The position numbers were made by a program, and so were the translations under genes. This document shows, piece after piece, positions 44,095 through 46,261 of a DNA stretch of 64,000 nt. The stretch is from Parvivirga hydrogeniphila. GTDB lineage: Bacteria; Actinomycetota; Coriobacteriia; Anaerosomatales; Anaerosomataceae. Numbering within the stretch: position 1 is the stretch's first letter; each line of letters opens with the position of its first letter. The notes under the pieces are model-generated. The model was not told the DNA's origin and did no database searches. It was given only the letters and a program-made list of their open reading frames with translations. The stretch lies in assembly GCF_023371205.1 (NCBI RefSeq), contig NZ_JAMCCO010000002.1, positions 373,501 to 437,500 on the forward strand, read 5' to 3'.

Positions 44095-44760
44095 TCACCT
44101 TTTGATACGCACGGTGACGAACACCTCGCCGTCGCGCACCGTCACCGGATAGGTGCGGACGTCAACGTCCGGATGGTCGGTGGTGCCGTCGCGCACGTCG
44201 TACCGCCACCCGTGCCACGGACACATCACGTGGTAGCCGTCCATGAAGCCGTCAGCAAGCGGCGCGAACGCGTGGCGGCACACGTTGGAGAGCGCGAAGA
44301 ACTCGTCGCCCACGCGCGCCACCGCGATGTCGTTCTTGCCGACCTTCACGTGCCGGACCTGCCCTGGCGGTAGGTCCTCGACGCGGAAGACCGGTACCTC
44401 GACATCGCCCGAGAGCGCTTCGATCACGCCGAACAGCTCGCTTCCGTCTTCGACCTCTTTGAGGATGAACAGCCCGCACCAGCACTTCTTGATGGCCGCG
44501 AACTCGTCCCGGTGGAATGAGATGCAGGGACAGATGATCCTCACATCCTCTTTCGGGTCTCCGGTTCGGACACGGCAGGGGCAGTACACGTCGCCCGTCT
44601 TCTCCAGGATCTCGAGCTCGGAGGCGAGCACGTCGTCGACGAAAGACGACTCGGTGTTGAACTTGTAGCCGAGCCGGTCCACGAACGGCCCCATGTACGC
44701 TTTGAGGTCTTCGATGGTCGTGCCAGGCGCGAAGCGCCGGCGCGCCGTCGCATCGCTCAC
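44095..44760 (-). CDS. Fusion of ferredoxin:thioredoxin reductase catalytic domain with a Rieske domain
   Basis: 221 residues. Residues about 15-110 match the catalytic beta subunit of ferredoxin:thioredoxin reductase: cysteine pairs CPC (60-62), CPC (77-79) and CWC (93-95) followed by GLF, which would bind a [4Fe-4S] cluster and hold the redox disulfide. Residues about 120-221 are a Rieske [2Fe-2S] domain with Cys161, His163, Cys180 and His183 in CRHAFAPL and CPWHGWRYD. The Rieske part may bring electrons to the reductase. The glutaredoxin gene directly upstream, overlapping by 4 bp, is the probable redox partner. Confidence 0.85.
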   Translation of the reverse strand: MSDATARRRFAPGTTIEDLKAYMGPFVDRLGYKFNTESSFVDDVLASELEILEKTGDVYCPCRVRTGDPKEDVRIICPCISFHRDEFAAIKKCWCGLFILKEVEDGSELFGVIEALSGDVEVPVFRVEDLPPGQVRHVKVGKNDIAVARVGDEFFALSNVCRHAFAPLADGFMDGYHVMCPWHGWRYDVRDGTTDHPDVDVRTYPVTVRDGEVFVTVRIKR

Positions 44761-45008
44761 AGCCCCAGCTCCTCCTTGATGCGCTTCTTGTTGAAGCCGA
44801 CGATCACGCTCTCGTCGTCGATGACGATCACCGGGAACGCCGTGCCGCCCGAGACGCGCCGTACCTCTTCGACGGCGGCCTTGTACTCGTCGCCTTCGAG
44901 CTTGTCGACCTCCACGACGTCGTACTCCACGTCGTTCTCGTCCAAGTATGCGCGCGCCGCGCGGCAGTACGGGCAGGTCGACAGGGCGTACACGAACACC
45001 TTGTGCAT
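44757..45008 (-). CDS. Glutaredoxin-like protein
   Basis: 83 residues: FVYALSTCPYCRAARAYLDEN with the active dithiol Cys12-Pro-Tyr-Cys15, the cis-proline segment GGTAFPVIVIDDE, and a C-terminal VGFNKKRIKEEL helix. Overlap with the downstream reductase/Rieske gene suggests that it is reduced by that protein rather than by glutathione, which such bacteria often lack (inference). Confidence 0.88.
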   Translation of the reverse strand: MHKVFVYALSTCPYCRAARAYLDENDVEYDVVEVDKLEGDEYKAAVEEVRRVSGGTAFPVIVIDDESVIVGFNKKRIKEELGL

Positions 45009-45017
45009 AGGATCCTC

Positions 45018-45368
45018 CTACGCGGTCGTCGGGGTCGTCTCAGACTTCTCCTCTTCGATCTTGCGCCAGTGATAGATGTAGATCGGGCCCGCGATCAGCA
45101 CCAGAGCCAGGTTCCCGACCACGTTGATGATCGCCCAGCGCTGCGACTGCTGCCGTCCGATCTCCTGCTGCCGCTGCCATTCCTCCTCGGTCATCTCTGG
45201 CGTGCCGGACCCGTCCTTCGGCAGCGGTTCCATGATGGTGGGCTCGGGGTAGAGGAGCTCGACTCCGCTCCGCACCACGCCGACGGCACCCACGATGACC
45301 ATGATGAGCGTGATGAGACACACCAGGTACAGGTAGATGTTGCGGAGCGACCACTTCGAGCCGGCCAT
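45018..45368 (-). CDS. Two-helix membrane protein of unknown function
   Basis: 116 residues with helices IYLYLVCLITLIMVIVGAVGVV and WAIINVVGNLALVLIAGPIYIYHW separated by an acidic, Gln-rich loop. No family recognised beyond generic small membrane proteins. It ends 9 bp before the glutaredoxin start, so it likely belongs to the same transcript. Confidence 0.6.
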   Translation of the reverse strand: MAGSKWSLRNIYLYLVCLITLIMVIVGAVGVVRSGVELLYPEPTIMEPLPKDGSGTPEMTEEEWQRQQEIGRQQSQRWAIINVVGNLALVLIAGPIYIYHWRKIEEEKSETTPTTA

Positions 45369-45430: not shown

Positions 45431-46261
45431 GTGTCCGAGCCGCGCCCCATCGACACCGGTCGTTGCGCGAGCCCCGAAGCCGAGGGCGTCGCGCTTCTCG
45501 CATCGGGATCGCGCGGCAACGCAGCGCTCGTGTACGCGGGCGCGACCGGGATCCTCATCGACTGCGGCATCTCTGCCCGCCAGGCGCGTCTGCGCATCGC
45601 GGCGGCTGGGCTCTCGCACGTGCGCATCGAGGCGGTCGTGCTCACCCACGAGCACGCGGACCACGTCGCTGGCATGCGCGTGCTCGCCCGCGAGCTCCGC
45701 GTGCCGGTGCTCGCAACGCACGGCACCCTCGACGCGATCGCAGGGGTGCTCGCAGAGATCCCCGACGTCGGCCCGCTGCGTGCTGGCGAGGTCGTCGCAT
45801 TCGGCGGGCTTTCGGTGCTGCCGTTCCGCTCTTCGCACGACGCGGCCGAACCGGTGGGCTACCGCGTGACGTTCCCATCGGGCCGGACGCTCGGATACCT
45901 GTCGGACACCGGATTCCTGACCGGCGAGGCGGAAGAAGCGCTCCGTGGCTGCGATGTGTTGGCGATCGAGTCCAACCACGACGTCGGCATGCTGGAACGA
46001 GGCCCGTACCCGGCGTTCCTCAAGCAGCGCATCCGCTCTCGGGTCGGGCACCTGTCCAACGACGACGCCGCGGCCGCCCTCGCCGCGCTCGCGCACGACG
46101 GCCTGCATACCGTGGTGGGGCTGCACCTCTCGGAGCAGAACAACACGCCTCGTGCGGCGCACTCGGCGCTTGCAATCGCGCGCGACCGTCTCGGGCTCGC
46201 GTGCGAGATCCTCGCAGCCTCGCAGCACACGCCCGTGGTGTGCGCGGTCGACACGCGCTAG
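45431..46261 (+). CDS. MBL-fold metallohydrolase, YycJ/WalJ-like
   Basis: 276 residues from a GTG start. LLASGSRGNAALVYAG, GILIDCGIS, VVLTHEHADHVAGM (the HxHxDH metal site), FRSSHDAAEPVGY, LGYLSDTGFL and the late VGLHLSEQNNTP histidine are those of the YycJ/WalJ group, which are thought to be exonucleases or nucleic acid phosphodiesterases. Divergent from the preceding gene and convergent with cobO, overlapping its 3' end by 4 bp. Confidence 0.82.
   Translation: MSEPRPIDTGRCASPEAEGVALLASGSRGNAALVYAGATGILIDCGISARQARLRIAAAGLSHVRIEAVVLTHEHADHVAGMRVLARELRVPVLATHGTLDAIAGVLAEIPDVGPLRAGEVVAFGGLSVLPFRSSHDAAEPVGYRVTFPSGRTLGYLSDTGFLTGEAEEALRGCDVLAIESNHDVGMLERGPYPAFLKQRIRSRVGHLSNDDAAAALAALAHDGLHTVVGLHLSEQNNTPRAAHSALAIARDRLGLACEILAASQHTPVVCAVDTR

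Follow-up and report, generated by a model that had tools for sequence, protein, structure and literature searches.

A ferredoxin:thioredoxin reductase catalytic domain fused to a Rieske domain, beside a glutaredoxin gene, in the order Anaerosomatales

The fusion gene and its glutaredoxin neighbour

The window analysed here, a stretch of 64,000 nucleotides, comes from Parvivirga hydrogeniphila Es71-Z0120, a member of the order Anaerosomatales described as a thermophilic obligate anaerobe oxidising hydrogen or formate (PMC9686372). On the minus strand it carries a gene with a GTG start (44095..44760) that encodes 221 aa and has known full-length relatives. The protein joins a ferredoxin:thioredoxin reductase (FTR) catalytic domain at residues 17-106 (44443..44712; Pfam FeThRed_B PF02943, 64.5 bits against a cut-off of 22) to a Rieske domain at residues 122-204 (44149..44397; Pfam PF00355, 71.2 bits against 20.3), and with both domains far above their cut-offs the original prediction of an FTR-Rieske fusion in one 221-residue chain is borne out. 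The catalytic domain contains a first CPC motif (C60 and C62; 44575..44583), a second (C77 and C79; 44524..44532) and a CWC motif (C93 and C95; 44476..44484), all of them invariant in alignments of relatives, and the Rieske domain contains a first box, C161-R-H163 (44272..44280), and a second, CPWHG, with ligands C180 and H183 (44209..44223). The claim that the CPC-CPC-CWC and C-x-H/C-x2-H sets are complete likewise stands, since the motifs are intact and none of the ten residues, six cysteines in the FTR part and four ligands in the Rieske part, varies either in an alignment of 26 rows, made up of the window and 25 of 32 other loci, or in one of 34 rows that combines the window with 33 of the 46 named loci. 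The spacing CPC-x14-CPC-x13-CWC is kept and both motif sets are intact in 45 of the 46 named fusion loci. The single locus with a broken frame (L079:6029-6661) runs into a stop just beyond the first CP of its FTR domain; the contig has low coverage, and an error of assembly is the probable cause. PF02943 occurs only once in the window's genome (1,840,996 bases in 9 contigs), and Pfam shows no rubredoxin family in the fusion protein at E values up to 0.01. Rieske boxes of the bc1 type carry extra cysteines; those of the fusion (CRHAFAPL, CPWHGWRYD and variants) hold the ligand cysteines only, with no additional disulfide cysteines. According to its description, complexes II and III are absent in P. 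hydrogeniphila, so the fused Rieske domain would not be a leftover of a bc complex; the same text makes no mention of Rieske or glutaredoxin (PMC9686372).

Structure prediction gives the same picture of the chain. A model of the whole protein (pLDDT 84.6, pTM 0.78) places residues 118-221 in the fold of the dioxygenase Rieske-type ferredoxins 2qpz, 5bok and 1vck (Z 13.5-14.2; for 2qpz Z 14.2, rmsd 2.1 over 98 residues), with which they also share the C-x-H / C-x2-H ligands, but these ferredoxins are free-standing partners of oxygenases whereas the Rieske domain of the window is fused to a disulfide reductase. When an AF2 model of residues 1-117 (pLDDT 86.9) was used in Foldseek, chains of FTRs and ferredoxin-dependent disulfide reductases (FDRs) were the only matches at E < 0.1, with Z values of 7.3-10.7 (7pwe 10.7, 4tpu 9.3, 1dj7 7.8). 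By sequence and fold, the fusion belongs to the FTR-catalytic/FDR superfamily. The catalytic subunits of plant and cyanobacterial FTR (1dj7 and 2pu9, Z 7.7-7.8) share this fold; those enzymes are heterodimers with a variable subunit that take thioredoxin as substrate, and their CHC motif and shorter last spacing differ from the CPC-x13-CWC arrangement of the window.

Directly upstream on the same strand lies a gene for a glutaredoxin-like redoxin of 83 aa (44757..45008; Pfam Glutaredoxin, 60.9 bits against 22.9) with a CPYC active-site motif (44964..44975), and its stop overlaps the GTG start of the fusion by 4 bases (GTGA). Its scores lie below the NCBIfam cut-offs for TIGR02194 (37.9 against 85.75), TIGR02200 (40.6 against 89.5) and TIGR02196 (60.2 against 88.55), and judged by these cut-offs it is not a member of the NrdH-redoxin, mycoredoxin or YruB equivalogs. 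A tblastn search with this glutaredoxin placed it directly upstream of the fusion gene and in the same orientation at 45 of the 46 fusion loci, the sole exception (L047) being a contig that begins 49 bases before the fusion gene. Among FTR catalytic (FTRc) loci without a fused Rieske domain, a glutaredoxin gene is upstream in 52 of 56 from a survey of the phylum and in 64 of 67 from a second phylum, or 116 of 123, as detected with an HMM of five redoxins, three of which come from the counted loci and so match by construction. In a control on locus ends this detector gave eight matches in short loci, where the end windows are taken to reach the real glutaredoxin. The original prediction had named the overlapping glutaredoxin as the partner of the enzyme, and this pairing has held up, at the fusion loci as well as beside most FTR genes without a Rieske domain and in 7pwe, where a glutaredoxin is fused to the FTR catalytic domain.

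Next to the glutaredoxin gene is a gene for a DUF5671 probable membrane protein of 116 aa (45018..45368, minus strand), a possible operon member, which is found on the same strand within 3 kb in 22 of the 46 fusion loci. An MBL-fold gene on the opposite strand (45431-46261 in the window) occurs within 3 kb in 31 of the 46. Among the genes tested at these 46 loci glutaredoxin alone is near-universal.

Occurrence of the fusion

In the genomes surveyed, the fusion is confined to one bacterial order. A full-length match is present in 24 of 27 genomes of the family. Of 69 genomes in the order, 58 match the fusion, 57 of them across both domains and one by a partial match near a contig start; two of the remaining order genomes have a Rieske match only and nine have no match. 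One of the carriers (G008) is a single-contig genome. A scan of named genomes yielded 78 loci, 46 with the fusion and 32 with one domain only, which overlap with the genome survey sets and are for that reason not summed with them. A separate Rieske match, with E values of 1e-13 to 5e-5, also lies elsewhere in many of the order's genomes (G078:C152, G100:C119, G051:C112 and others). Outside the order, the fusion is absent from the 128 other genomes among the 197 examined in the class, six of which give a weak Rieske-only match, from 393 further genomes of the phylum (396 minus three of the window's genus) and from 247 genomes of a second phylum, where all 67 FTRc matches were inspected. A profile search at E 1e-15 in two more phyla (198 and 200 genomes) also returned no fusion, for the 198 among the matches listed in order of E value. 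One genome of the 198 (G862) has a glutaredoxin-FTRc arrangement without Rieske, and in one of the 200 (G1116) an FTRc gene lies close to a thioredoxin gene, the stretch inspected containing no Rieske.

Between the fusion of the window and its nearest relative, differences number 11, 11 and 67 at the three codon positions and 54 of the 76 changed codons are synonymous, a pattern that points to protein constraint along the whole chain. The fusion is thus confirmed as real and old, not an assembly join. A frameshift joining two genes, which the original prediction had itself named as grounds for refutation, is excluded by the conservation of the fusion across the order; only the rarity of the architecture speaks for a sequencing frameshift or misassembly, against its recurrence in 58 of 69 order genomes and 46 named contigs and a coding substitution pattern spanning both domains, and we give such an artefact practically no chance. 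A phage or plasmid origin was also considered and rejected, since viral contigs contain no confirmed relative of the fusion and no place on a plasmid covers 80% of the protein. In literature that covered few subscription papers, on the Methanosarcina enzyme as on other subjects, no title or abstract found under FTR, Rieske, rubredoxin or glutaredoxin describes the fusion, and papers printing 'ferredoxin:thioredoxin' may have escaped phrase searches; this absence is no proof that the fusion is unpublished.

Carrier modules on a common core

The FTR catalytic domain is found with different companions. The phylum survey gave 59 FTRc matches in 58 of 396 genomes, three of which are the Rieske fusion (G000, G008 and G009). 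The other 56 have a rubredoxin-like motif at the C-terminal side in 45 cases, at the N-terminal side in three and none in eight, some of these eight being cut by contig ends or N runs. One of the 45 (L145) was checked with Pfam and matches RUBY_RBDX at 48.2 bits. In the second phylum the rubredoxin-like motif is present in 14 of the 67 FTRc genes and absent from 53. Judging from this survey, the Rieske domain occupies the place of the rubredoxin-like domain and most likely replaces it as the electron carrier. The original prediction had suggested that the Rieske domain may replace ferredoxin and the variable subunit. The replacement of a rubredoxin-like carrier is most likely in this light, and Rieske may or may not stand in for ferredoxin as well, but the plant enzyme with its variable subunit is not the right comparison, which is instead provided by bacterial and archaeal FDRs with a rubredoxin-like domain. 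Taken together, the FTR catalytic domain and glutaredoxin appear to form a stable core onto which carriers are plugged, whether none, rubredoxin or Rieske. In six of the loci (L159, L165, L168, L170, L171 and L178) the rubredoxin-like C-terminal domain is present as a near-identical tandem duplicate. An overlapping glutaredoxin (CPVC)-FTRc gene pair without a carrier domain was observed at L311:2828-3434, in the phylum of a Nitrospira MAG.

Three further known systems are close to the fusion. The first is the protein of PDB entry 4tpu, titled as a ferredoxin-dependent disulfide reductase of Methanosarcina acetivorans, with a molecule name that includes rubredoxin. It shares with the fusion the FTR catalytic fold (Z 9.3), by alignment the same CPC/CPC/CxC order, and an iron carrier domain, but its carrier is rubredoxin and its last motif CYC, where the window has Rieske and CWC. 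Kumar et al. reportedly found in 2015 that the rubredoxin centre of the Methanosarcina FDR relays electrons from ferredoxin. A ferredoxin:disulfide reductase also reduces an atypical thioredoxin of Methanosarcina, according to a further report (PMC6262447). The rubredoxin FDR class represented by 4tpu is defined by its fused rubredoxin; the fusion of the window lacks one and is best filed as a Rieske variant. The second system is the glutaredoxin/ferredoxin disulfide reductase fusion of Desulfotalea psychrophila, as PDB entry 7pwe is titled. The glutaredoxin of the window matches residues 5-84 of this protein (52.6 bits) and the FTR half residues 86-172, so the neighbouring genes of the window each have their counterpart in one half of a naturally fused protein, in the same order and with the best fold match (FTRc Z 10.7). 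The difference is that glutaredoxin is fused in 7pwe, a chain of 196 aa whose FTRc match ends at 172, leaving no room for a Rieske domain. The third is the group of FTRc-rubredoxin genes in other Actinomycetota (L145 and G200, for example), which have glutaredoxin upstream, FTRc and a C-terminal iron-carrier-like domain as in the window, but in which that domain is rubredoxin-like and an in-frame TGA is frequent.

This TGA is present in 18 of the 45 rubredoxin-linked FTR genes (L155, L165, L168, L171, L172, L178, L182 and others), and in the rows inspected it stands at the last motif position (CYU), where it probably encodes selenocysteine. Selenocysteine in the fused gene was rejected, as the stops flagged inside some fusions proved to be the normal terminal stop in the 33 loci read.

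Two genomes hold a related arrangement in split form. In G484, from another class of the same phylum, the gene order is Rieske, glutaredoxin (CPWC), FTRc, Rieske, and the same order was found on a 432-kb contig of G591, from the second phylum; all eight proteins are confirmed by Pfam. Of 123 non-fused FTRc loci, no others have a Rieske pattern next to the FTRc gene, as sought with a ligand-pattern regular expression that may miss some cases, within 900 bases in the phylum and 1,200 bases in the second phylum. No further split operon was found in 36 genomes of the class of G484 or in 26 of that of G591, and this isolation suggests transfer. A tree of 46 FTRc rows unites the 11 fused rows with the 2 split ones (99/98) to the exclusion of the remaining 33, which supports a shared ancestry of Rieske-linked FTRc domains; the split pair sits on a long branch (2.17). 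The corresponding tree for Rieske, of 39 rows, places the fused domains in one clade (99/99) apart from the Rieske proteins of the split operons, with long branches and with comparison rows biased by having been picked for a motif close to the fused one. The absence of a grouping between the fused domains and the second Rieske protein of the split operons means that the fusion need not stem from a joining of these neighbours, and a simple origin of this kind is not supported by the Rieske tree, biased and long-branched as it is.

A candidate electron path and its alternatives

The reading that we favour, and that we hold to be rather probable, is that the fusion is an FDR-type enzyme with a Rieske-type [2Fe-2S] carrier in the place of rubredoxin that reduces its own glutaredoxin. 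The domains, conserved residues, conserved gene pair and module swap are read from the sequence, and we infer the loading of the clusters, the direction of electrons, their donor and glutaredoxin as the substrate. In FTR, four cysteines hold the cluster and two form the active disulfide. By homology the redox pair is presumably the second Cys of the first CPC and the last Cys of CWC, C62 and C95. Electrons would enter singly at the Rieske [2Fe-2S] cluster and pass to a [4Fe-4S] cluster beside the redox-active pair C62/C95, breaking this disulfide in two one-electron steps; the resulting dithiol would then reduce the adjacent CPYC glutaredoxin, which would carry the electrons on to disulfides of the cell. 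A report on a known FTR selenoprotein places Sec exactly at the two redox-active cysteines (PMC2398784), and the in-frame TGA at the last position of the CYU motif therefore lends independent support to the assignment of the pair.

Some weight against this reading comes from the rarity of the split operons, from the Rieske tree and from the presence of a thioredoxin reductase in the same genome, but the main difficulty of the path lies in its energetics. The midpoint potentials of Rieske-type ferredoxins are around -150 mV, and the disulfides of FTR and glutaredoxin lie lower, so that transfer from Rieske to disulfide would be uphill unless the potentials differ in this protein. A Rieske cluster feeding a disulfide would thus be a clear thermodynamic puzzle. 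Rubredoxin potentials, however, are usually higher still than those of Rieske-type ferredoxins, and 4tpu carries a fused rubredoxin in spite of this; the difficulty does not exclude the Rieske path. For the order Anaerosomatales, two described type-strain isolates make the question of Rieske and disulfide testable (PMC9686372).

A broader proposal, which we regard as a tentative possibility, is that the fused and split forms are one FTRc subfamily of CWC type that is dedicated to Rieske carriers and fed by a donor of higher potential, such as an NAD(P)H-flavoprotein, and not by ferredoxin. If true, this would amount to a new connection between Rieske redox chains and the thiol pool, taking the form of a four-gene operon in distant bacteria and of a fusion in a single order.

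It is unlikely, in our estimate, that the Rieske domain lies off the electron path, where it would sense redox state or oxygen or serve for docking, and that ferredoxin reduces the FTR cluster without an intermediary, as in FTRc proteins that stand alone. The 53 of 67 FTRc genes of the second phylum without a fused carrier do indicate that the FTR domain can do without one, but none of the four Rieske ligands varies across 34 rows, the domain found at the same position in other genes is rubredoxin-like and hence of an electron-carrier fold, and in the split form small Rieske proteins are retained as separate neighbours of FTRc. We consider it quite unlikely that electrons run the opposite way, from the glutaredoxin thiols through the [4Fe-4S]/disulfide site to Rieske and an acceptor, so that the domain would serve as a sink for thiol oxidation or as a link to another chain. 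Such a direction agrees with the usual Rieske and rubredoxin potentials, which lie above those of disulfides. Against it, no candidate acceptor is conserved beside the fusion gene, where glutaredoxin alone is near-universal among the genes tested, and net thiol oxidation would be of little use to a host described as an obligate anaerobe (PMC9686372).

It could finally be that the FTR-Rieske enzyme has a substrate other than glutaredoxin, which would instead depend on thioredoxin reductase; we regard this as very unlikely. A canonical NADPH thioredoxin reductase (TrxB) is indeed encoded above the TIGR01292 cut-off in 25 of the 27 family genomes, that of the window included, but the glutaredoxin-FTRc pair persists at 45 of the 46 loci with the fusion and at 116 of the 123 without it, and the two are naturally fused in 7pwe. 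The presence of TrxB also led us to reject the fusion as the sole substitute for thioredoxin reductase; with TrxB encoded as well, FTR-Rieske and glutaredoxin would form a parallel system.
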